Source: an uncultured Bacteroidales bacterium (GTDB lineage Bacteria > Bacteroidota > Bacteroidia > Bacteroidales > UBA932). Taken from it: 39,713 nucleotides of DNA. Positions 13,398 through 39,427 of this stretch are shown piece after piece (within the stretch, counting starts at the first letter, position 1; each line of letters opens with the position of its first letter). A program made the translations under genes and the position numbers. The notes beneath the pieces are model-generated. The model had not been told where the DNA came from. It saw only the letters and a list, made by a program, of their open reading frames with translations, and searched no databases. The stretch lies in the NCBI GenBank assembly GCA_934667175.1, contig CAKULN010000025.1:1-39713 (forward strand). The letters run 5' to 3'.

Positions 13398-14558
13398 ATG
13401 GAAAGCATTTATATTAAGAACTTCGGTCCCCTGAAAGAAGTCGAAATTCAAGACATAAAAAAGGTAACAATTTTCATAGGAGAAAGCGGTAGCGGCAAGA
13501 GTACGATAATGAAAGTCATCGCACTGTTCAGATGGTTGTACAAAATGATGAACATCCGCTCATTTCTCAAATATTCAAAAGTGCCCAAGAGTCCATTCCG
13601 TTTTCAATTTATAAGCCTGCTAAGAAACTGTGGGCTGATTGACTATTTGAAGTCAGACAGCGAAATAGTGTACAGGAATGGGGAACTAGAACTCATGTGG
13701 GATCCTGACAGTAAAAAACTTAAAGGAACGTCTTCCTATATTCCCAAAGAAGAATTAAGCCTCGAAAAGATTTCCTTTATTTCAGACAAGCGTAATCTGA
13801 TCTCAGACATTGTTGACAATCATCTGCCATTAAAGAAGGATATGTACTATCTCTCAGAGACATATTCCGACTTTGAGACAGCGGTCAGAGAAGTCAAAGA
13901 GATGGAGATTTCAGACCTAGGCGTCAAGTTTATCATAAAAAAGACTAGTCAAGGGAATAAATATCTAATCGTTCCAGCCGATGACTCAGGATCTTTTGGA
14001 GTGAAATTAAACTCAGCCTCCTCAGGCACACAAAACCTTGTGCCAATGAATATCATTGTCGAATATTACTCAAAACACTATGACTTAGTCTCGTCAATCA
14101 ACAAAGCCATTCTTGCGTATGTCTCTAAATCAGATAGTCTTAGTGACTTTAAGGCCGTAAAGAATATCGGAGAATTCGCCAACAAAAATGTGCATCTTAT
14201 TATCGAAGAACCGGAACTAAGCCTTTTTCCTTCCAGCCAAAGGGAATTGATGGAGTTTTTGTTTAGAAGCATTTCGGACGACAATGGAAGAGAGTACAAT
14301 ACAACGTTGATGTTTGCCACGCATAGTCCCTATATCGTTAATTATCTGAATATACTTCTTCTACGACAGGGACACATTGAGAATAATCAGAGTTCGATAA
14401 ACAAGGACGACCTGTCTGTCTATCGGGTTTATCAAGGATCAATACAAAATCTCGTAGGGACAGTGAACGGAAACACCCTTGTTGACACAAGCGATCTCAG
14501 TGAAGAGATTGAACGAATCTATTATGAATATTCAACCTTGAAGAATAAACTACTATGA
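13398..14558 (+). CDS. AAA ATPase of the OLD/ABC-type group, putative defence protein
   Basis: The 386-residue protein starts at the ATG at 13398, giving M-E-S-I-Y-I-K-N-F-G-P-L-K, the classic start of RecF/OLD-like ATPases. An earlier in-frame ATG would overlap the promoter. Walker A is G-E-S-G-S-G-K-S-T (28-36). An ABC-signature-like S-S-G-T-Q-N is near 204-209. Walker B I-I-E-E-P-E-L-S-L-F-P lies near 266-276 and the H-loop F-A-T-H-S-P-Y near 304-310. Known: such ATPases are often paired with a nuclease or toxin in anti-phage systems (Septu, PARIS, Gabija, retrons). Inferred: it is the sensor or motor for the gene overlapping its 3' end. Low GC and flanking repeats suggest recent acquisition. 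Confidence 0.8.
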   Translation: MESIYIKNFGPLKEVEIQDIKKVTIFIGESGSGKSTIMKVIALFRWLYKMMNIRSFLKYSKVPKSPFRFQFISLLRNCGLIDYLKSDSEIVYRNGELELMWDPDSKKLKGTSSYIPKEELSLEKISFISDKRNLISDIVDNHLPLKKDMYYLSETYSDFETAVREVKEMEISDLGVKFIIKKTSQGNKYLIVPADDSGSFGVKLNSASSGTQNLVPMNIIVEYYSKHYDLVSSINKAILAYVSKSDSLSDFKAVKNIGEFANKNVHLIIEEPELSLFPSSQRELMEFLFRSISDDNGREYNTTLMFATHSPYIVNYLNILLLRQGHIENNQSSINKDDLSVYRVYQGSIQNLVGTVNGNTLVDTSDLSEEIERIYYEYSTLKNKLL

Positions 14559-15160
14559 AGGATCTTATCGAGCGGGCGTTTTCCACCTATAATCCCAACC
14601 TTAGGGTTTCAGAGAACATAAAAGATGGCGATTTCGGTTTGACGGATACGAAATCGTGTAATGACTGTTGGAACAACACAAGATATTTCGCGGAAAGTTG
14701 TGATGATAAAACAGTTCTGAATATTCATAACACGGAAGAGGTCAGGGTAATCTGTTTGGAAAAGGTATTTCAAGATTGCACAAATACAGAAGCCGCTGTA
14801 GGAGGTTGTTGTGACTATTTATTGTATTCCAATCACAAAATCGCCGTCACTGACTTAACCTGCTCAAGGCCAGAATTTATAGCCCAAGGTGCAAAAGGCG
14901 GGAAACGAGCAATCGCATATCAGCAGATGTCCGATTCTATCGAGAAGCTCCAAAAATTCGAATCTATAACTGATAGAATCAGCCAAATGGATTCTAAAGT
15001 GGCCATCTTTGCCATTAGAAAAAAGGTATTCGCTGTAGAGGAAGATAGCCCACAACGTTCGATGAAAGCATTTCTTCAGATGAACGTTAATCCGGCAATA
15101 GATATGGGAAATGGCTTCCATTTTATAACTCAAGAATACCCTTTGGCCTACACCTGGTAA
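14555..15160 (+). CDS. Cys-rich partner of the AAA ATPase, possible nuclease-like effector
   Basis: I do not recognise this 201-residue protein with certainty. It overlaps the ATPase gene by 4 bases (ATGA), so the two are coupled. It has eight cysteines in its N-terminal half (35, 38, 49, 67, 75, 85, 86, 103), including C-N-D-C. The segment G-G-C-C-D-Y-L-L-Y, then about ten residues, then A-V-T-D-L-T-C-S, is followed by a helix with A-Y-Q-Q-M. This layout (acidic strand, beta hairpin, acidic strand, Gln helix) resembles PD-(D/E)xK nuclease-like cores found beside defence ATPases, but the usual E-x-K is D-L-T, so catalysis is uncertain. No HNH motif and no membrane helix are seen. Confidence 0.6.
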   Translation: MKDLIERAFSTYNPNLRVSENIKDGDFGLTDTKSCNDCWNNTRYFAESCDDKTVLNIHNTEEVRVICLEKVFQDCTNTEAAVGGCCDYLLYSNHKIAVTDLTCSRPEFIAQGAKGGKRAIAYQQMSDSIEKLQKFESITDRISQMDSKVAIFAIRKKVFAVEEDSPQRSMKAFLQMNVNPAIDMGNGFHFITQEYPLAYTW

Positions 15161-29225: not shown

Positions 29226-31466
29226 TCAGTCTGTAACGTCTTCCACTAAAGTCCAGTTATCTGGAAGGCAGAGCGCTGTTTTAGTAGCGTCAAGTAATCC
29301 GCTTCTTATATGCAGTTTGCCGTTTTTCGCTGTACTGGTCAGCCAATAGCTGAAAGGGTTAAACTTTGTGTCAAAGTTATTGACATATAGAATAACTTCA
29401 TCTATTTTTTTGCAACCTCTGAACATCTCAGCGCAACACCCATCGGCCATTTTCTTGGCCATCAACTTTGGAGCATTAGTTAGAGAACTGCACCCATAGA
29501 ACATTCTATTATAGCACTTTTCTTTAAGTTCTGTCGCAGGAAGGGATTCCGGGCCGGATTCCATCCCGGTGCAATTCACAAACATCCGCTCGTAGCCGAA
29601 TTTCCTCACTTCTGTTGCTGGCAGTGCCGGTGCTGCTTTCAGACGGGTACAGTTCGCAAACATCCGCTGATAACTGCCCTCATTAACTGTTTCAGCATTG
29701 AGTTCCGGAGCAGAAGATAAATTCTCGCATCCGTTAAACATATCCTGATAACAATAATCAGCGAGCGTTGTTGCCGGAAGTTTTGGTGCGGCAGTAAGGT
29801 TCTTGCAGTAGGCGAACATGTTGGCGCAGTTATAACCAACGCCATTATTATTATTCTTAAAAGTTTCGATGCAAAGGTCTGTCACCGTGGACAGCCTGCT
29901 GCACCCATAAAACATTTCTTGCATTCCGTATGCATTGACAGTTTTGGCTGAAATCGTCGGCATTACTTCAAGTGACGTACAGCCGTAGAACATTTCATTA
30001 TATGCATTGTCTGGAACCGTTTCAGCAGGCAAATCAGGGGCATTCTTCAATAAAGTACAGCTATTGAACATGGATTCATAGCAGGACTCTGCAAGTGCTT
30101 TTGCAGGAAGTGCGGGAGCAGTTGTCAGGCTGGTACAGCCCTTGAACATCTGCTCATAGCAACTCTTTGCAAGCTCTGTCGCAGGAAGTGCGGGAGCAGT
30201 TGTCAGGCTGATACAGCCCTCGAACATCCTAAAATAGCAGTTAGATGACAAATTGTTCGACGGGAGATCCGGAGCTGAAGTCAAGACTGAACAGTTCTGG
30301 AACAAATATGAAAAACGGGCGTCTTTGGTTTCAACCGTTGCATAATTTTCCCAATCAATGAGGGTGCGGATGTCACCTTTGCAACTTACCGGCACATCTT
30401 TTTCAGTAAAACTGATTGTAGTGGTTATGCCGCTGAGATAAGTTCCACTCGTATTCTTATTCTTATCATTTCCCCCACGAAGCCTCAAGTCTCCATTTGA
30501 GCCACCGAATTCCACTTCAGTGTTAGCCGTAACACTTTGCCAATCGGAATCTCCGACAGAATAGTAGAGGTAAAAGAAGTCCTGCGAGATTTTGAACTTC
30601 TGCGTGGCGTCCGCCGTGAATGTGATGTAAGGATATTCTCCTCCCTTCACCCCGCCGAGGTTGGTTACATAATTGCGCTTGATTGTCAGAGGCTTATCCG
30701 AAGTTTTGCAGGTGTTCTGTCCGTCAGAGGCCGTAAAGGTCAGGCTGAAACTTTCCATTTCTGCCGGGAAAATTGCAATGTAGTAAGTCTTGCCGGCCTC
30801 GATGTCACCAGATATGGAGACGCTGCTTGAAGCCTTGTCTTTGACCGTGGCCACTGGCAAACCTTCTTTGTTCATGGTGATATCTGCTGTTCCTGCAAGC
30901 GCGGCTGAACTCGTGCCCGTGAGGGTGATCTTCTTACATGAGACGGTAGGGGTCAACTTCACAAAGCCCACTATATTCTTGAAACTCAGATTTGTGCTTC
31001 CGTCCCCGGTAGTACCCATCATCAAGGCCGCCTCCGGGTCGAATGAGCCGGGCACTGCCGTCTGTTCGCTTTTCAGAACCACTCCTTTCAGAGTTATAAT
31101 ATTAAAGGCCTTCTGGAAGGTCACGTCCTTCTGATAAGGGTAGAGTGCCGTGTAGCTCGTCGCCTGGCTGGCTTTTTCGCTCTCGAACTTGCCCGTTGTG
31201 GTGCCGGTGCCATCTGTCAGAGTAAACTTGACATTCTTTTCTTCACCGTCTATCACCGTGATTGCGTCATCCTTGGTCCAGTTGATGAGTTTGCTGTTTT
31301 CCGAACTGATTTCGGCCTTGGTACCGGTGTTCTCCTGGTCGGCTGTCAATGTCACAGTGGCGTTGCCGGACAGGTTCTTCTCTGGAGAGCTAAGGTTTTC
31401 TTTGGCACAACCTGCAAGCCCGAGCAGGGCTGCAAGTGTCATTGTCGCTTTTGTAATTGCCTTCAT
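29226..31466 (-). CDS. Fimbrillin-like lipoprotein with BspA-type leucine-rich repeats
   Basis: I start at the ATG at 31464-31466, giving 746 residues; the upstream extension overlaps the small gene and lacks a signal. A lipoprotein signal ends L-L-G-L-A-G-C. The next roughly 280 residues resemble the fimbrillin-like beta domain of Bacteroidota surface lipoproteins (T-K-A-E-I, I-N-W-T-K-D-D-A-I-T-V). From about residue 390, twelve repeats follow the pattern M-F-x-G-C-x-x-L-x-x-A-P-x-L-P-A, a BspA-type LRR. Such proteins are surface-exposed adhesins. It follows a 43-residue gene under one promoter with a G8 spacer, so it may be switched on and off. Confidence 0.85.
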   Translation of the reverse strand: MKAITKATMTLAALLGLAGCAKENLSSPEKNLSGNATVTLTADQENTGTKAEISSENSKLINWTKDDAITVIDGEEKNVKFTLTDGTGTTTGKFESEKASQATSYTALYPYQKDVTFQKAFNIITLKGVVLKSEQTAVPGSFDPEAALMMGTTGDGSTNLSFKNIVGFVKLTPTVSCKKITLTGTSSAALAGTADITMNKEGLPVATVKDKASSSVSISGDIEAGKTYYIAIFPAEMESFSLTFTASDGQNTCKTSDKPLTIKRNYVTNLGGVKGGEYPYITFTADATQKFKISQDFFYLYYSVGDSDWQSVTANTEVEFGGSNGDLRLRGGNDKNKNTSGTYLSGITTTISFTEKDVPVSCKGDIRTLIDWENYATVETKDARFSYLFQNCSVLTSAPDLPSNNLSSNCYFRMFEGCISLTTAPALPATELAKSCYEQMFKGCTSLTTAPALPAKALAESCYESMFNSCTLLKNAPDLPAETVPDNAYNEMFYGCTSLEVMPTISAKTVNAYGMQEMFYGCSRLSTVTDLCIETFKNNNNGVGYNCANMFAYCKNLTAAPKLPATTLADYCYQDMFNGCENLSSAPELNAETVNEGSYQRMFANCTRLKAAPALPATEVRKFGYERMFVNCTGMESGPESLPATELKEKCYNRMFYGCSSLTNAPKLMAKKMADGCCAEMFRGCKKIDEVILYVNNFDTKFNPFSYWLTSTAKNGKLHIRSGLLDATKTALCLPDNWTLVEDVTD

Positions 31467-31479
31467 GATTTCCTGCTGA

Positions 31480-31611
31480 TCACCAATCGAATGTTTCTTC
31501 TTCCAGATTTTCAGTGTTACCACTGTTGTTGAGGAGCACGCTTTGTTCCAGTTCCATGTTCAGGACCTCCACGACTGGAGACTGGTAAGGTTTAAGAGAA
31601 TTGATTTTCAT
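31480..31611 (-). CDS. Small peptide preceding a fimbrillin-like lipoprotein
   Basis: The 43-residue frame begins M-K-I-N-S-L-K-P-Y-Q-S-P-V-V-E-V-L and ends in an acidic E-E-E-T-F-D-W. I prefer the internal ATG at 31609-31611 because earlier codons overlap the promoter. Small genes with a K-x-Y-x-x-P-x-x-E-V start and an acidic or aromatic end are often seen just before fimbrillin/BspA lipoprotein genes in Bacteroidota. Their role is unknown to me. The lipoprotein ATG follows 13 bases after the stop. Confidence 0.65.
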   Translation of the reverse strand: MKINSLKPYQSPVVEVLNMELEQSVLLNNSGNTENLEEETFDW

Positions 31612-31637
31612 TTGTAAATTAATGTTTAAAAATTTTA

Positions 31638-31668
31638 CAAATATACCCCCCCCATTTTGATTTTGCAA
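31638..31668 (-). promoter_or_regulatory. Promoter of the lipoprotein operon with a G8 tract in the spacer
   Basis: On the minus strand TTGC (31665-31668) and TATATTTG (31638-31645, exact TAnnTTTG) are 19 bases apart. Eight consecutive G (C on the plus strand, 31646-31653) directly adjoin the -7 box. An A8 run lies just upstream (31672-31679). Confidence 0.65.
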
Positions 31669-32063: not shown

Positions 32064-33329
32064 ATGGCGGCATATATTCAACGAGATGTATATCTACGAA
32101 AACTCATTGACAGTAGGTTCAATGGTGATGTCAAAGTCGTAACCGGGCCAAGACGGTGCGGTAAATCTTGGCTCTTGACCAAGTTATACAAAGACTTTTT
32201 GATTAAGGATGGAGTGCCCGAGGACAACATCATAATTGTCTCTCTTGATATGGATGATGAAAGCAATCAAAGCGATCTTGCCGACAAGGATAAACTTAAA
32301 TCATATCTGTACAGCAAGATCACGGACCAGCACGCTGATTACTACGTGATTCTTGATGAGATACAAGAGGTGAACGGGTTTGAGAAGCTAGTCAACGGCC
32401 TTAGGAACAAAGAAAACGTGGATGTCTATGTCACTGGCAGCAATGCGAGATTCCTATCAAAGGAAATCAGCACCATATTCCGTGACAGAGGGCACGAGAT
32501 AAGGTGTAATCCATTTTCTTTCAAAGAATTCAGCTCTGGAAGAGCGGAACAAATCCGTGAGCTATGGCAAGAGTTCTACACTTATGGGGGTATGCCAGGG
32601 CTTCTAAGGAGGAAAACGAAGTTACAAAAAGCGGCTTACCTCCAAGATCTTTGGAGAAAGACTTATCTGACAGACATTAAGGACAGGTATAACATCGAGA
32701 ACTCAGCAGCCTTGGAAGCCATTACGGATAGCCTTTGTTCCTCAATAGGCTCGCTATCAAATCCAGGAAAGATTGCGAACTCACTAAAAAGCATCCAGAA
32801 CATAAAGATTGACGAGGAAACTGTGAAGAAATACTTGGATTGCATCTGCGATTCATTCCTTTTCGAAGGAGCGCGACGTTATGACATCAAAGGCAAGGAA
32901 TACTACAAATCATTCAAGAAATATTACTGTGTTGACGTAGGGATAAGGAATGCACGCCTGAATTTTCGCCAGCAGGAAATCACGCATATTATGGAAAACG
33001 TCATCTACAATGAGCTACGTGCAAGGGATTATATGGTGGATGTCGGCATGGTCGGGTCCCGGGAAATGCGTAATGGAAAATCAGAATATATTCAGTATGA
33101 GGTAGATTTCATTGCGACCAATGGTATTGATAAGTATTACATCCAATCCGCATATTCAATGCCCACTGAAGAAAAACGTCAACAGGAGTTCAGGTCACTC
33201 AAGAAAATCGGAGACTCCTTTCGCAAGATAGTCATAGTCGGAGATGATATTGCCACTTACACGAATGACGATGGTATCACCGTTATGGGGTTGTACCAAT
33301 TTCTTCTTAATAACGATATTCTAAAATAG
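32064..33329 (+). CDS. ATPase of the AAA_14/DUF4143 family
   Basis: The 421-residue protein has the AAA_14 N-terminal domain: Walker A G-P-R-R-C-G-K-S (about 28-35), Walker B V-I-L-D-E-I-Q-E (about 93-100) and sensor V-T-G-S-N-A-R. A middle Y-G-G-M-P segment follows. The DUF4143 C-terminal region holds E-N-V-I-Y-N-E-L and E-V-D-F-I-A then Y-Y-I-Q-S-A-Y, a PD-(D/E)xK-like pattern with Gln in place of Glu/Lys. Many copies of this family occur in Bacteroidota genomes; the role is not settled, with links to mobile and toxin-like elements proposed. It is AT-rich, and its stop codon touches palindrome copy 3, with copy 2 in front. Confidence 0.88.
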   Translation: MAAYIQRDVYLRKLIDSRFNGDVKVVTGPRRCGKSWLLTKLYKDFLIKDGVPEDNIIIVSLDMDDESNQSDLADKDKLKSYLYSKITDQHADYYVILDEIQEVNGFEKLVNGLRNKENVDVYVTGSNARFLSKEISTIFRDRGHEIRCNPFSFKEFSSGRAEQIRELWQEFYTYGGMPGLLRRKTKLQKAAYLQDLWRKTYLTDIKDRYNIENSAALEAITDSLCSSIGSLSNPGKIANSLKSIQNIKIDEETVKKYLDCICDSFLFEGARRYDIKGKEYYKSFKKYYCVDVGIRNARLNFRQQEITHIMENVIYNELRARDYMVDVGMVGSREMRNGKSEYIQYEVDFIATNGIDKYYIQSAYSMPTEEKRQQEFRSLKKIGDSFRKIVIVGDDIATYTNDDGITVMGLYQFLLNNDILK

Positions 33330-34352: not shown

Positions 34353-35387
34353 ATGAAACGACTAGCCCCACTATTTACGTTTCTTCTAATAACAAGTTCT
34401 TCCGTGCTTTTCGGCCAGAATTATCCTCCTGAATGGAGACAGTTTACAAAAGCAGGATATATATATGATATTCAGCACGACAGGAATTTGTCTGGACGTG
34501 CTGAGACCGACTTTAAGAATTATCTCACCGACATCGCCCGAACAAATATAGGCAAACAGATCCAGATACGGATCTCTGACCATGCGGCACTAAACAAGGT
34601 ATCAATAAACGGAAGGTCATTCATCAATTATACATCTTCCACAAAGTTTTCCACAAATCTGAACATCAAGTTGATAGAAACAAAAGCATACTATAACTCT
34701 TTCACAAAAGAAGGATACTCAATTGCATATATAGATGAGTCCAAAGCTATCTCAACATATATTAAGGATGTCAGGATCATTTATAACAAGATAGGAAATG
34801 CGATTGCCATAGCTGACACTTATGTCTCAACTGGCTTCAAAACAAAAGCACGTACCGAATTGGAAAACGCGAGATGCGAGTTTTCCAAGTTGGAAGAACC
34901 TTATTTTTGGTTGGCTATATTAAACTACCCGGAGAATGATTTTAATAATCTTCTTTTGGATAAGACTTCTCTGGAACAAACACTGACGCACAAATTGTCA
35001 GAATTACAGCATGATATCAACATCTATGTTCAATGTTATTCAGACATGTTTGGGACACCATACCTGCAATTAGAGGGCGATATCAAAGAACCACTCTCGA
35101 CAATCGGATGCAATTTCTGCAATGACGCGAATGAAGCAGATTGGATAGTTACTATAAGATCAGCGGCTGAAGAATATAACCACATCACAATCGGAGGCAA
35201 CTCGGCATACTTTTCTTACATTCATGCAAATATAACTCTTACAAAAACAGCTACTCAGCAAGTCGTTTATAATGGTGAAATCTCAGAAAAGGGGAGCCAC
35301 ACCCATAACTATAATCAAGCCGCACGGGACGGATATAAAAAGATGTCTCAGCATATATCTGAAATATTATTAAAACATATAGAGTAA
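34353..35387 (+). CDS. Exported protein of unknown function, LPP20/CsgG-operon type
   Basis: The 344-residue protein has a signal peptide (1-22, ending L-F-G-Q). The N-terminal part (P-P-E-W-x-x-F-T, then D-I-A-R-T-N-I-G-K-Q-I-Q-I-R-I) looks like LPP20/FlgT-type domains. The middle is helical and TPR-like. The C-terminal region contains A-D-W-I-V-T-I-R-S-A, a beta fold with two nearby cysteines (C-N-F-C). No lipobox is visible. It is the first gene after the structured leader and overlaps the next by one base (TAATG). I infer an envelope-complex component; function is unknown. Confidence 0.6.
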   Translation: MKRLAPLFTFLLITSSSVLFGQNYPPEWRQFTKAGYIYDIQHDRNLSGRAETDFKNYLTDIARTNIGKQIQIRISDHAALNKVSINGRSFINYTSSTKFSTNLNIKLIETKAYYNSFTKEGYSIAYIDESKAISTYIKDVRIIYNKIGNAIAIADTYVSTGFKTKARTELENARCEFSKLEEPYFWLAILNYPENDFNNLLLDKTSLEQTLTHKLSELQHDINIYVQCYSDMFGTPYLQLEGDIKEPLSTIGCNFCNDANEADWIVTIRSAAEEYNHITIGGNSAYFSYIHANITLTKTATQQVVYNGEISEKGSHTHNYNQAARDGYKKMSQHISEILLKHIE

Positions 35388-35908
35388 TGAAAAAGACTGT
35401 ATTACTGATATTCCTATTGATTTCAACCGCCATAAACGCACAGAATATCGAGAAGAAAATAGCGATCCTTAAAGTCATTGATCGTGATGAGAATGTTGCG
35501 CAAGGGCTGAAATTAATGCTCAGAGGCAAACTGACGGCAGCGGTGACCGCGACTCCTGGATATACAGGTTTGGACAGAGTGGATATAGATGCGGTTCTTT
35601 CGGAGCAAAACTTCCAAAGAAGCGGATTGGTCAAAGAGGCCCAGATAAAGCAGTTAGGTGTAGCATTAGGTGCAGATTTAGTGATGGTCGCAGAAGCAGC
35701 TTGGCTTAACATATATAAGACGGAGCTTGTAATCTCTGCCAAATTGATCGATGTGGAATCTTTTCAGGTCGTAAAGACAGCCATGATTACCACGACAGTA
35801 AACTCATTTTCCGTAAACGAAAATTGTCATCGGTTAGCGAGGCTGCTGTTAAAACCATCGAATGTCATCCAACAGACACCAGGAAGTGGAATCATTCCGA
35901 AATACTAA
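35387..35908 (+). CDS. CsgG/LpoB-like exported protein
   Basis: The 173-residue protein has a signal peptide (1-19, ending I-N-A-Q). A compact alpha/beta domain of the CsgG/LpoB type follows: I-A-I-L-K-V-I-D, L-R-G-K-L-T-A-A-V, G-L-D-R-V-D-I-D-A-V-L-S-E-Q-N-F-Q-R-S-G-L-V, and L-G-V-A-L-G-A-D-L-V. The same landmarks appear in the N-terminal domain of the gene at 36498, so the two are paralogues. Family members bind penicillin-binding proteins or form secretion channels. No lipobox cysteine is present. The start overlaps the previous stop. Confidence 0.72.
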   Translation: MKKTVLLIFLLISTAINAQNIEKKIAILKVIDRDENVAQGLKLMLRGKLTAAVTATPGYTGLDRVDIDAVLSEQNFQRSGLVKEAQIKQLGVALGADLVMVAEAAWLNIYKTELVISAKLIDVESFQVVKTAMITTTVNSFSVNENCHRLARLLLKPSNVIQQTPGSGIIPKY

Positions 35909-35923
35909 TTTAAAACACATAAA

Positions 35924-36490
35924 ATGAGAACTTTAATTATCACCGCGTTGTTATTTGTGTCACTAACAACAGCTTCAGCACAGTCCTATTCAAAAGGGAC
36001 AGAATCAACCAAACTGCATGGCTTGGAAATGGCAGAAACGCTAAGCGATGACGGGATGGAGATTGTAAAAAGGCCTTTCAAATGGTTCGCCGGAATCGGA
36101 GAATCCGATGACAAGCAGATAGCCATTGAGATAGCCCAGAGAGAAGCGCAGTCTGCCGTTTCCAGAATCATCCGAAATGAAGTAATAGATCAAGCCACAA
36201 AGATAGGAGTTGCCGCCAACGGTCGTGTATGTCAAGCATTGGTCACTTCATGGGAGCAATATTCCCATAGTATCCTTGTCGGCTGCGAGCCGTTTGGCAA
36301 AGCGAAAGTCCAATACAATCCGAATACCGGAATATACCGAGTAACAGCCAGAATCGGCATTCAAGGAGATCGGTTCAAAAAGATGATGGGTGAATATAAA
36401 GAGTGTCCTTCAGAAGAACTTACTCCTGTAGAGAGCCAGCAATATATTCAGATCAGCAAGGCTGTTGTCAAAGTAATGATTTCCGAATAG
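35924..36490 (+). CDS. LPP20-like exported protein
   Basis: The 188-residue protein has a signal peptide (1-19, ending A-S-A-Q). A single domain contains W-F-A-G-I-G-E-S, A-I-E-I-A-Q-R-E-A-Q-S-A-V-S-R-I-I and G-I-Y-R-V-T-A-R-I-G. This is the pattern of LPP20/FlgT-type domains, in which a helix with repeated A-x-x-x-A-x-x-x-A packs on a sheet. It lies 15 bases after the CsgG-like gene and 7 bases before its larger paralogue, clearly one transcript. Function is unknown; an envelope role is inferred. Confidence 0.65.
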   Translation: MRTLIITALLFVSLTTASAQSYSKGTESTKLHGLEMAETLSDDGMEIVKRPFKWFAGIGESDDKQIAIEIAQREAQSAVSRIIRNEVIDQATKIGVAANGRVCQALVTSWEQYSHSILVGCEPFGKAKVQYNPNTGIYRVTARIGIQGDRFKKMMGEYKECPSEELTPVESQQYIQISKAVVKVMISE

Positions 36491-36497
36491 TCTGAAT

Positions 36498-37709
36498 ATG
36501 AAAAAGATATTAACATTATTATTTCTATTGTGCGGAACGACCTTGATGGCTCAGAACAAAGCTGTCGCGATTACCGAGGTGGTGGACAAGGAAGACAAAG
36601 TTCCTTATGCTGTAGAGATAATGGTAAGGACCAGGTTGACAGCGGCCATTTCCATGAAGCAGGGATATAATGCGTACGACAGGGTTGACCTGCAGACCAT
36701 TATGGCAGAACATAACTTCCAGAGGACGGGCCTAGTTGATGATGCTACAATAAAAAAACTAGGAGAGATGACAGGGGCGTCTTTAGTCCTGATACCGGAA
36801 GTCGCTGCATCTGATGACGGGAAAATATATGTGGCTGTAAAAATGCTTGATGTGATGACAGCCCAGACTATGATGTCAACAGGACAACTGATGGGAAGTT
36901 CTTCCAATGAGGTTGATGAAGGATGTAGGTTATTAGTAGAAAAAGTTCTGGGAAATGGAGTTACAACATCAAGTATTTCTGCCCCTACAGATGAGCCTGT
37001 AACATTATATGGTTATCTACATGTCTTTCCGAAAGATGTAGGCGAGTTTAAAACCTTGCCGGAGCAGTTGCTTCAAGCAATCAATAAATCAAGTCAGTAT
37101 GGATATGATTCTTGGAGATTGCCCACAACAGAGGAACTTTCCATAATGCGCGCCAATAGTGATTTGATACCGAATTTAAAGAATGCAGACTATTTGTGCT
37201 CGGATTCTTCAAATGGTGGATATGCAAGGTTAGTCACCACTGACGCTTCTGTCGAGCAGAGGAAGCTACGTAAAAAAGCTATTTACAATTTATTAGGGAC
37301 TGAAGACTGTATAATCTGCGATAGTATAGCTGTTGCCGCAAAGCGTGTAGACATAATAGAAGGACAATGTGGAGAACAACCATCCTCATATCTATACCCA
37401 AGCAAAAAATTCCATCTCACTTGCCAAATAGCACTAATTCAAAAATATAGTAAACTATTTGAGATTTCTGCGACATATGGGTACTATATTGACAGAACAG
37501 CGGAAATCAGAAACGACATCACGTTTATTACACTCTCTTTTATATATGATGGGGAAAAGTCCACGAAACGCCTAAGTTTTTTTCGTAATGACGATGGAAC
37601 TTACCATTATGTGGGTTATAGCGGTAGTTATCTTGCAATGTATATAGCAAAGTTACCCTCAGAAGAGGCCATCCAACAAGAAATGCAACGACTTTCAAAA
37701 CAACAATAA
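36498..37709 (+). CDS. CsgG/LpoB-like exported protein with a DUF1566-like C-terminal segment
   Basis: The 403-residue protein has a signal peptide (1-18, ending M-A-Q). Its CsgG/LpoB-like domain matches the 35387 protein (L-T-A-A-I, Y-D-R-V-D-L-Q-T-I-M-A-E-H-N-F-Q-R-T-G-L-V). Near 205-213 there is W-R-L-P-T-T-E-E-L, the signature of DUF1566/FGE-sulfatase-like domains, then S-S-N-G-G-Y-A-R-L-V. After this comes about 120 residues I do not recognise. The combination of a PBP-activator-like domain with a possible ligand-binding or lectin-like fold is unusual. It ends one base before the small Tyr-rich peptide gene. Confidence 0.7.
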   Translation: MKKILTLLFLLCGTTLMAQNKAVAITEVVDKEDKVPYAVEIMVRTRLTAAISMKQGYNAYDRVDLQTIMAEHNFQRTGLVDDATIKKLGEMTGASLVLIPEVAASDDGKIYVAVKMLDVMTAQTMMSTGQLMGSSSNEVDEGCRLLVEKVLGNGVTTSSISAPTDEPVTLYGYLHVFPKDVGEFKTLPEQLLQAINKSSQYGYDSWRLPTTEELSIMRANSDLIPNLKNADYLCSDSSNGGYARLVTTDASVEQRKLRKKAIYNLLGTEDCIICDSIAVAAKRVDIIEGQCGEQPSSYLYPSKKFHLTCQIALIQKYSKLFEISATYGYYIDRTAEIRNDITFITLSFIYDGEKSTKRLSFFRNDDGTYHYVGYSGSYLAMYIAKLPSEEAIQQEMQRLSKQQ

Positions 37710-37710
37710 C

Positions 37711-37881
37711 ATGTCATTGAATATGAAGACCCTCAACAATCTGACATTCGCTCAGAAAATGATACTGAAAAAGGTAAGCGAAAAAACACATGACAGTTTC
37801 CAAGACAATTGGGTGGAATACGAAGAGTCGTATAACACTGACTACAATGATTGCCATGGTGATTATTTCGATGCTGAATAG
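37711..37881 (+). CDS. 56-residue peptide with acidic Tyr-rich C-terminus, candidate RiPP precursor
   Basis: The ATG lies one base after the previous stop. The N-terminal half (T-F-A-Q-K-M-I-L-K-K-V-S) is basic and helical, like a leader. The C-terminal 25 residues are acidic and aromatic: W34, Y37, Y41, Y45, Y52 and F53, with Tyr every four residues in Y-E-E-S-Y-N-T-D-Y-N-D, then C48 and a D-Y-F-D end. Aromatic-x-Asp/Glu/Asn/Thr triads (W-V-E, Y-E-E, Y-N-T, Y-N-D, Y-F-D) resemble sites crosslinked by cyclophane-forming radical SAM enzymes. It lies in the same operon as a radical SAM/SPASM protein. That it is a substrate is inferred from position and composition. Confidence 0.65.
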   Translation: MSLNMKTLNNLTFAQKMILKKVSEKTHDSFQDNWVEYEESYNTDYNDCHGDYFDAE

Positions 37882-37887
37882 AATACA

Positions 37888-38337
37888 ATGAGTATAATAA
37901 TCTTTTCCGATGTCATCTTACCGACATCAATAGGCATACTGACAGCTGGAATAAGTTGGTTCTTTGCCAACCACGTTTTCTGTCCGCATCTCGAAATATC
38001 AGATCTAAAGTACAACAGCAACAACCGACCATACTTGCTTATCTCCAACAGATCCAAGCACATGAATGCGTATGAGGTTGTCTGTCACATAAGCTATTAT
38101 GCCAACAAGAAGCATGCACACTCAAGGACAGACATAACAAGGTATGTACTTGAGACAACTCAAATGGAAGAGTCCAACTATCAAGTTAAATTAGATGGAT
38201 CGGCAAAGACTCACGCTTTGTTCAGCAAGACCGTCGGCCTTATGCTATATGTTGTCGTATCATACCAGAATAAATTCGGAGTCAAGAAGAGCATCGTTAA
38301 AAAAATAATAGCAAAAGACGATGGTAATAATTATTAA
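37888..38337 (+). CDS. Small membrane-anchored protein in the radical SAM operon
   Basis: The 149-residue protein has one N-terminal helix (about 4-27), then a beta-rich domain with C-P-H-L-E-I-S, Y-L-L-I-S-N-R-S, H-I-S-Y-Y-A and V-V-V-S-Y-Q-N-K-F-G, resembling an immunoglobulin-like fold. It ends in a basic segment. I do not recognise a family. It begins 6 bases after the peptide gene and overlaps the radical SAM gene by 17 bases, so it is very likely part of the same pathway. It might be an immunity, docking or export-assisting protein; none of these is shown by sequence. Confidence 0.6.
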   Translation: MSIIIFSDVILPTSIGILTAGISWFFANHVFCPHLEISDLKYNSNNRPYLLISNRSKHMNAYEVVCHISYYANKKHAHSRTDITRYVLETTQMEESNYQVKLDGSAKTHALFSKTVGLMLYVVVSYQNKFGVKKSIVKKIIAKDDGNNY

Positions 38338-39427
38338 GCCTACATATTCTTGCAACTTTCGTTGTAAGTACTGCTATTTAAGCAATGGCACAAAAACCAA
38401 TTCTACAAGATTTGACGTGTCATTCATCAACGACGCTATTCGTCAAATCAAGGAATATGTCCTTAATAACAAGCTTCGAAAGAAAATCACTTTCATCTGG
38501 CATGGAGGCGAACCTTTATTATGGGGCGTCGATAATTTCCGAAAAGTCCTTGAGTTCCAAGAAAAAGAGTTATCGGAGCTTGACTATGGCAATTCCTTAC
38601 AAACCAATCTCTCGCTTTTATCCGTAGATTATGTGGATTTGTTCATAAAACACAATGTTCACATTGGCTTTTCCATTGATGGGTTCAGGGAATTAAACGA
38701 CTCTCAAAGAGTGTTTGCAGATGGCAGTAGTACTTATGACACGATTATTGACAGGCTGAATTTCGCCAGAACAAAGGGGCTGAGTATGGGTTGCATCATC
38801 GTGGGCACGAAGAACAGTATAGGAAAAGTTAAGGAGTTATATCAATTCGTTTGTGAGCACAAGCTGAATTTCAAGTTTAATCCTTTGTTCATATCCGGCG
38901 AGGCACAAAACAATGATACTGAATTAGGTATTACTCCTCAGGAGTATGCTGATATGGCGATAGAATTATTTGATTTGTGGTACAATGACACGAAGAGTAG
39001 AATAACAGAATCAAACTTTGTGGAAATCGCAAGCAACCTGCTTACCGGACATACATCAGGATGTTTATTCGGAAAGAACTGCCAAGAACATTTTTTTGCC
39101 ATCGCACCCACGGGCGATGTCTTCCCTTGTGGCAGATTCTGCGACGAAAGCACCGCAGCATATTCATACGGCAATCTGCATACTGACAGCCTCGCTGATA
39201 TCTTAGCAAAAGCAAAAAAAACAGACTGCTATAATAGATTTAAGTATATTGAGAACAGCGGATGCAGATCATGCGTATATTTCAGCGTTTGCCACGGAGG
39301 ATGTTTGCATGACGGGTATTTGAAGCAGGGGGATTTCAAATCAAAGACTTTCTTGTGTCCTGCATATTTGATGATATTCAAGCATATCAAAGACATCGTG
39401 CGATCCACAAGTCTGATAGCCCAGTGA
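38321..39427 (+). CDS. Radical SAM/SPASM peptide-maturase-like enzyme
   Basis: The 368-residue protein has the radical SAM motif C11-x3-C15-x2-C18 (S-C-N-F-R-C-K-Y-C-Y), W-H-G-G-E-P-L-L and S-I-D-G-F. The C-terminus has a complete SPASM cysteine set: C-x10-G-x4-C around Q-E-H-F-F-A-I-A-P-T-G-D-V-F-P, then C-R-S-C-V-Y-F-S-V-C-H-G-G-C (C-x2-C-x5-C-x3-C), then a last Cys in F-L-C-P-A-Y. SPASM proteins with two auxiliary clusters include sulfatase maturases and RiPP enzymes. No sulfatase is present, and the short Tyr-rich peptide upstream favours peptide modification. The start codon overlaps the preceding gene. Confidence 0.88.
   Translation: MVIIIKPTYSCNFRCKYCYLSNGTKTNSTRFDVSFINDAIRQIKEYVLNNKLRKKITFIWHGGEPLLWGVDNFRKVLEFQEKELSELDYGNSLQTNLSLLSVDYVDLFIKHNVHIGFSIDGFRELNDSQRVFADGSSTYDTIIDRLNFARTKGLSMGCIIVGTKNSIGKVKELYQFVCEHKLNFKFNPLFISGEAQNNDTELGITPQEYADMAIELFDLWYNDTKSRITESNFVEIASNLLTGHTSGCLFGKNCQEHFFAIAPTGDVFPCGRFCDESTAAYSYGNLHTDSLADILAKAKKTDCYNRFKYIENSGCRSCVYFSVCHGGCLHDGYLKQGDFKSKTFLCPAYLMIFKHIKDIVRSTSLIAQ

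Follow-up and report, generated by a model that had tools for sequence, protein, structure and literature searches.

A conserved precursor-maturase cassette is encoded near the end of the window, i.e. the whole stretch of 39,713 nucleotides from an uncultured Bacteroidales bacterium that was analysed here. It consists of three open reading frames (ORFs) on the forward strand, namely a short gene for the precursor peptide (37711-37881; 171 bases, 56 aa), a gene for a membrane partner (37888-38337; 149 aa) and a gene for a radical SAM/SPASM maturase (38321-39427; 368 aa). The original prediction, which was made from the sequence alone, had placed a peptide, a one-helix membrane protein and a radical SAM enzyme at these positions; the ORF coordinates agree, and W34, Y37, Y41, Y45 and Y52, to which it had drawn attention, are all present in the translation. 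We consider it probable that the peptide is a RiPP precursor which would carry up to six three-residue cyclophanes and belong, as a variant from Bacteroidales, to the triceptide kind. This reading builds on computed observations, i.e. the pairing of peptide and enzyme, the selection acting on the peptide, a motif rule together with its direction, the clade formed by the enzyme, and the loss of the catalytic Asp of sulfatase maturases.

The three genes are the last three of seven tightly spaced genes on the same strand (34353-39427), which are separated by at most 15 bases or overlap slightly. The upstream neighbour of the peptide gene ends at 37709, the peptide ORF starting one base further on, and the ORFs of the membrane protein and the enzyme share 17 bases. 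In an alignment of homologues M5 is the start column in 11 out of 16 sequences, and translation of the peptide may begin at this residue, giving 52 aa.

Peptide and enzyme are firmly paired. An alignment scan with one genome per species yielded 349 relatives of the enzyme, the best 80 of which were kept, corresponding to 78 distinct loci. The window's group comprises 35 of these loci (L001-L033, L037 and L066; identity at least 48%), and the 33 rows of this group that entered the tree, window included and L018, L021 and L066 absent, form one clade with a support of 100/99. Co-occurrence of peptide and enzyme in Bacteroidota had been suggested as a check, and enzyme homologues lacking the peptide would have spoken against a common pathway; all 34 relatives having upstream sequence carry the peptide next to the enzyme. 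Scoring small ORFs by their count of [WYH]-x-[DE] motifs, with at least four required to pass, identified a passing ORF beside the enzyme at 31 of the 35 loci (32/176 small ORFs there), whereas only one of 3,069 control ORFs, i.e. ORFs that are distant or on the opposite strand at all 78 loci, passed, and this one, in L039, itself reads as such a precursor. As to the four loci below the threshold, L030 has no upstream DNA, and the peptides of L016, L037 and L066 have the leader motif together with a lower number of scored sites. When 393 evenly sampled Bacteroidales genomes were searched, the enzyme (E <=1e-100) was found in four genomes (five copies) and the peptide in three, all four peptide matches being located no more than 0.8 kb from an enzyme copy. 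Just ahead of the fifth copy (G178) there is a short ORF that had been missed by the profile and was recognised by eye from a stretch resembling the leader and from its sites Y-N-E and H-Y-D. As three of the four enzyme-bearing genomes were already among the loci, this sample mainly tests the absence of the peptide where the enzyme is absent. With an occurrence in about 1% of the sampled Bacteroidales genomes the cassette is accessory. Together with the selection on the core described below, the pairing across relatives supports the proposal that the peptide is the substrate of the SPASM enzyme.

Several loci show a variant organisation. At L002, L005, L006, L008, L010, L029, L031 and L066 there is a second precursor-like ORF, or the precursor is located between the membrane protein and the enzyme. 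In L018 and L021 the available sequence of the enzyme gene (from 8001) has its reading frame interrupted within the first third, reflecting either decay or an assembly error, and the cassette of L023 lies on a contig titled Christensenellaceae (Bacillota) in a clade that otherwise belongs to Bacteroidota, which may indicate transfer or mis-binning. Outside the window's group 10/43 loci have similar precursors nearby, five of them archaeal, and nine of the ten precursors are found downstream of the enzyme. The archaeal contigs L034, L039, L043, L045, L050 and L052 contain relatives of the enzyme together with precursors that exhibit several aromatic-x-acid sites and have a leader different from that of the window's group, in several cases of an N-P-x-x-R type.

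The peptide family is sizeable and essentially unannotated. The single peptide sequence of the window used as query matched 16 protein clusters, and a profile of 24 relatives retrieved 350 peptide clusters at E <=1, 120 of which were listed. One peptide cluster was found on 1,000 contigs; nine of the 120 listed clusters are named, eight as 'hypothetical protein' and one as transposase. The peptide can be divided into a leader, covering residues 9-29 in the window (37735-37797, forward strand) with a T-x-A-Q-x2-I motif (T-x-A-Q in 138/156 unique peptides), and a C-terminal core. Conservation in the alignment is much stronger in the C-terminal half, F-Q-D-N-W-V-E-Y-E-E-S-Y-N-T-D-Y-N-D-C-H-G-D-Y-Y-D-A-E, than in the leader.

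The core is under strong purifying selection and the leader less so. Over all pairs pN/pS is 0.315 for the core and 0.602 for the leader, and in ten chosen pairs the core reaches pN/pS values of 0.014 (L027/L028) to 0.181 in those with saturated synonymous sites and dN/dS values of 0.030 and 0.199 in the unsaturated ones, as compared to 0.22-0.58 for the leader, all these figures being rough owing to the short sequences. Moreover, synonymous codon positions vary beneath the invariant D-Y-N-D-C-H-G-D-Y. An unconserved peptide frame or a lack of purifying selection, which would have counted against the original prediction, is thus not observed. Near-invariance of the core in the nearer relatives of the window is also what one would expect if one product was made in many species, as in the case of cofactor RiPPs, where an invariant core is anticipated. 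The enzyme might accordingly introduce another radical modification of Tyr or Asp, e.g. an ether bond or an epimerisation, or the core might be the source of a small redox cofactor that is cut out in the style of PQQ or mycofactocin, and the chemistry cannot be fixed from a sequence pattern. We regard this as improbable, as the wider clade varies the number and order of its aromatic-x-acid sites (3 to 10 per peptide), a pattern more in keeping with local rings formed repeatedly than with one fixed cofactor.

Cyclophane formation agrees with a simple rule in the core that the original prediction had not recognised, i.e. an acidic residue (Asp/Glu) two positions after Trp, Tyr, His or Phe. In the 40 distinct cores from the loci, 201 of the 285 W/Y/H residues have D/E at position +2, while 2,000 within-core shuffles give a mean fraction of 0.294 (sd 0.023, max 0.375); in a larger set that includes database relatives (143 cores) the numbers are 782/1,088 versus 0.315 in shuffles. 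As the peptide sequences are related, these counts are not independent and the shuffle odds overstate the certainty. Resolved by residue, the larger set has an acid at +2 of W in 92/96, of F in 123/159, of H in 158/206 and of Y in 532/786 cases, and +2 is the top acid offset for all four residues alike. Acids are also frequent at -2 of W (72/98), -2 of H (126/201) and -1 of Y (486/800), because the sites often succeed each other at three- or four-residue steps. An acid has an aromatic residue only two positions before it in 150 cases, only two positions after it in 38, on both sides in 79 and on neither side in 72, as compared to 70, 70, 26 and 173 in shuffles, and in the larger set the direction is likewise biased, with 490 to 127. 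This asymmetry identifies aromatic-x-acid as the unit, although the direction test answers the enrichment of acids at -2 only statistically.

Six such sites are predicted in the peptide of the window, all on the forward strand, and the 156 unique peptides have 3 to 10 of them with a median of 7, F included. These are F30-Q31-D32 (37798-37806; F-Q-D in 121/156 peptides), W34-V35-E36 (37810-37818), Y37-E38-E39 (37819-37827), Y45-N46-D47 (37843-37851), H49-G50-D51 (37855-37863; H-G-D in 130/156 peptides) and Y52-F53-D54 (37864-37872), the latter being based on the alignment and the counts of acids at +2. Y41-N42-T43 (37831-37839) is an exception in the alignment of homologues, with no acid at +2 and D44 at +3; it departs from the rule in the closest relatives of the window, too, and many relatives have Y-D-D or Y-G-D at this position instead. 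Four of the five sites listed in the original prediction (W-V-E, Y-E-E, Y-N-D and Y-F-D) hence fit the rule, whereas Y-N-T breaks it, and F30-Q-D32 and H49-G-D51 had been missed, as had the conserved residues C48 and H49 and the leader motif.

C48 (37852-37854, forward strand), which lies between two predicted sites, is not explained by cyclophanes and would permit thioether chemistry. The sulphur of Cys48 could be linked in a ranthipeptide-like manner to one of the acidic residues, e.g. D51 or D54, the Tyr-Asp pattern then serving recognition or metal binding. The Cys-bearing stretch DYNDCHGDY, which also includes Y45-N46-D47, is found in 123/156 peptides, and the enzyme scores 127.4 bits with the model of the ranthipeptide maturase PapB (NF047865), an enzyme that links Cys to Asp/Glu according to the available text of PMC9413430. 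This score misses the cutoff of 340 bits, and 17/156 peptides lack any Cys and all retain at least three aromatic-x-acid sites, those at L005, L009, L010 and L022 adjoining enzymes of the same clade. We consider the thioether to be unlikely. A further point against the cyclophane reading is that cross-linking at the Cβ of Glu has no precedent in the available text of PMC11002830. Still, cyclophane-type cross-linking, which the original prediction favoured as the likeliest chemistry, is supported by the aromatic-x-acid rule and by the precedent of the maturase YxdB (PMC11002830, as far as available).

The enzyme contains Pfam Radical_SAM and SPASM domains. The full set of SPASM cysteines that the original prediction had noted comprises eight residues (C248, C254, C270, C315, C318, C324, C328 and C346), which are conserved in 27/27 aligned homologues and align with the set of anSMEcpe. 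In the structure model (pLDDT 87.2) the first barrel strand opens the chain directly, so that there is no N-terminal RRE domain. The nearest folds are those of anSMEcpe, with a TM-score of 0.79-0.82, and of the radical SAM part of ChlB, with 0.81-0.83. The similarity to anSMEcpe, both in the fold and in the cluster cysteines, and 210.8 bits with the sulfatase maturase model TIGR03942 would be compatible with an anaerobic sulfatase maturase that lies beside an unrelated small protein by chance. This score is, however, below the cutoff of 349.45, Gly271 takes the place of Asp277 of anSMEcpe (located beside Cys276), which we take to be the catalytic residue of the sulfatase maturase, the stretch P-C-G-R-F-C-D being invariant across 27 aligned sequences, and the peptide adjoins the enzyme too consistently (34/34), so that the probability of such a coincidence is negligible.

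The top NCBIfam model for the enzyme is DynA (NF041298) with 291.5 bits, which raises the question whether the product might be a dynobactin-like antibiotic from a relative of that pathway, whose rings form a β-strand mimic that blocks BamA. The conserved His near a Tyr would be in line with the bonds of dynobactin, i.e. Trp-Asn(i+3) and His-Tyr (PMC11002830, as far as available). Nevertheless, the cutoff of 450 bits is missed, whereas the Photorhabdus australis locus (L065), our positive control, reaches 603 bits, the tree places its three dynobactin-type loci in a clade of their own, and the core of the window ends with acidic residues, unlike the L065 precursor, making a dynobactin-like product very unlikely. 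Among the other named cyclophane maturase models, YhhB, AmcB, GrrM/OscB, XyeB and FxsB score 96 to 133 bits versus cutoffs of 310 to 450, none of which is reached, and no YxdB model is found among the best 25 of 68 NCBIfam matches listed. As these models mark subgroups, the missed cutoffs exclude the respective subgroups, and not the triceptide kind. In L041 (from 6283; contig titled Dehalococcoidia) and L046 (from 8001; contig titled Aminicenantes) the enzyme continues C-terminally into a poly-Gly linker, which is followed by a Tyr-rich tail containing two (L041) or three (L046) aromatic-x-acid sites, and these proteins are apparent natural maturase-substrate fusions.

Homologues of the membrane protein are present at 29/34 loci with upstream sequence as judged by BLAST linkage, which did not find them at L019, L022, L023, L027 and L066, L027 having a 72-aa ORF that carries the helix and L066 an unlinked 163-aa ORF. 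The model of the protein (pLDDT 79.5) consists of a 29-residue N-terminal helix and an Ig-like β-sandwich. A clear hydrophobic stretch can be found in 28/30 members (L003 and L015 are below the threshold), and K/R residues are more common after than before the most hydrophobic stretch in 28/30 members (exceptions L021 and L026). This excess beyond the hydrophobic stretch suggests that the Ig-like domain faces the cytoplasm, so it is probably located on the side where enzyme and peptide are.

Based on these findings we propose that the leader helix with its T-x-A-Q-x2-I motif would dock directly on the radical SAM/SPASM enzyme, without the help of an RRE. The enzyme would then proceed along the C-terminal core and join the aromatic ring of each site to the β-carbon of the Asp or Glu at +2, resulting in up to six rings (F30-D32, W34-E36, Y37-E39, Y45-D47, H49-D51 and Y52-D54) and a loss of 2 Da per ring. 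The membrane protein would be anchored by its helix, with the Ig-like domain on the inner side of the membrane, and probably retains the enzyme or the product there.

The genes next to the cassette bear on the fate of the product. In the window, the peptide gene is preceded by a gene for a secreted protein with a CsgG-like N-terminus and an Lcl_C-like stretch (36498-37709, forward strand; Lcl_C 21.0 bits, under the cutoff of 34.9), whose N-terminus shares 37% identity with its 173-aa neighbour, and by three further operon genes on the same strand that encode proteins with signal-like N-termini (34353-35387, 35387-35908 and 35924-36490). The product of 35387-35908 is CsgG-like (20.1 bits, slightly under the cutoff of 20.8), and those of 34353-35387 and 35924-36490 (344 and 188 aa) have homologues in L001 and L004. 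Homologues of the 36498-37709 product are located upstream of the peptide at five loci by direct BLAST and at seven by linkage. Overall, the upstream proteins fall into fn3/Lcl_C surface proteins, paired CsgG-like proteins (seven loci and the window), the 344-/188-aa set and others, and the largest BLAST cluster of downstream proteins has at most five members. A Pfam scan of chosen neighbours (96 upstream and 43 downstream proteins) revealed no ABC transporter or peptidase families among the families present in at least two proteins, although some Ig-like domain names include transporter or carboxypeptidase, i.e. there is no conserved dedicated exporter or peptidase beside the cassette among the neighbours scanned. 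CsgG is an export component of curli, and as CsgG matches occur in six upstream proteins the CsgG-like proteins could provide an export route at some loci, contrary to the idea that the product is not secreted.

The near-invariant core in nearer relatives, together with the lack of a conserved exporter or peptidase, points to a fixed job in the cell envelope rather than to a fast-evolving antibiotic. A RiPP core that is more conserved than its leader would thus suggest a physiological role instead of warfare, and peptides of this kind are not usually employed in that way. Going further, and with more doubt than confidence, we speculate that a single enzyme takes all four residues, Phe, Trp, Tyr and His, pairs them with Asp as well as with Glu within one core and forms six or more rings, and that the D-Y-N-D-C-H-G-D-Y-Y-D product is kept at the inner membrane, unsecreted, as a rigid carboxylate/Cys/His element, metal-binding or structural, that serves the envelope proteins encoded in its operon, the whole constituting a distinct poly-cyclophane family of Bacteroidales.

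Other parts of the window contain an AAA_14/DUF4143 ATPase gene (32064-33329; AAA_14 is also found in 4/43 downstream neighbours and perhaps merely common), a large repeat protein gene on the reverse strand with a weak DUF285 match under the cutoff (29226-31523), a 62-aa ORF (31480-31668) and an AAA_15/AAA_21 ATPase gene (13398-15157) that is directly followed by a 201-aa ORF with no Pfam match and may form a defence-type pair with it.

A literature search returned no paper recognisable as dealing with this Tyr/Asp-rich peptide family, and the words tyrosine, cyclophane and triceptide are absent from the main text of a survey of Bacteroidales RiPPs (PMC10352776). The chemistry is likely of a known kind, and enzyme clade, leader, mixed-residue multi-site core and membrane partner are unnamed in the libraries searched. 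Among known systems anSMEcpe resembles the enzyme in its overall structure and differs in the residue at the catalytic position and in its partner, which is a sulfatase there and a peptide gene here. ChlB (PDB 9gm3, 9gmc), the radical SAM part of which was solved with a precursor leader, is also close in fold, but shares only ~22% identity with the enzyme. The dynobactin pathway of P. australis (DynA/DynE) has the nearest NCBIfam model, a SPASM enzyme of similar length and aromatic cross-links in common with the cassette. It is set apart by the missed cutoff, the separate clade and the different precursor core. Its precursor is encoded downstream of the enzyme and not upstream and ends with WNSNVHSYRF, and the peptide of the window has no core ending of this WNxNVHxY type. 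The proposed chemistry has its parallel in triceptides. In the available text of PMC11002830, the triceptide maturase YxdB (Sugiyama et al. 2022) bonds C3 of Tyr to Cβ of Asp, OscB bonds Trp to Cβ of Asn/Asp as well as Phe to Asn, the bond formed by HaaB connects His with Ala, and YhhB couples either Tyr or His to Arg. Tyr-x-Asp being the motif of YxdB, the statement in the original prediction that no named RiPP class fits the peptide does not hold as far as the chemistry is concerned. As in triceptides, a maturase gene adjoins the precursor gene and the core contains aromatic-x-X3 motifs, with cross-linking predicted at X3. Compared with YxdB by its published description, as far as available, the cassette shares a SPASM-kind radical SAM maturase and an aromatic-x-acid core motif, but combines sites at four different residues (W, H, F and Y), with either Asp or Glu as the partner, within one core, so that a single enzyme is predicted to tolerate four aromatic and two acidic residues per substrate and to install more rings than the two of dynobactin.
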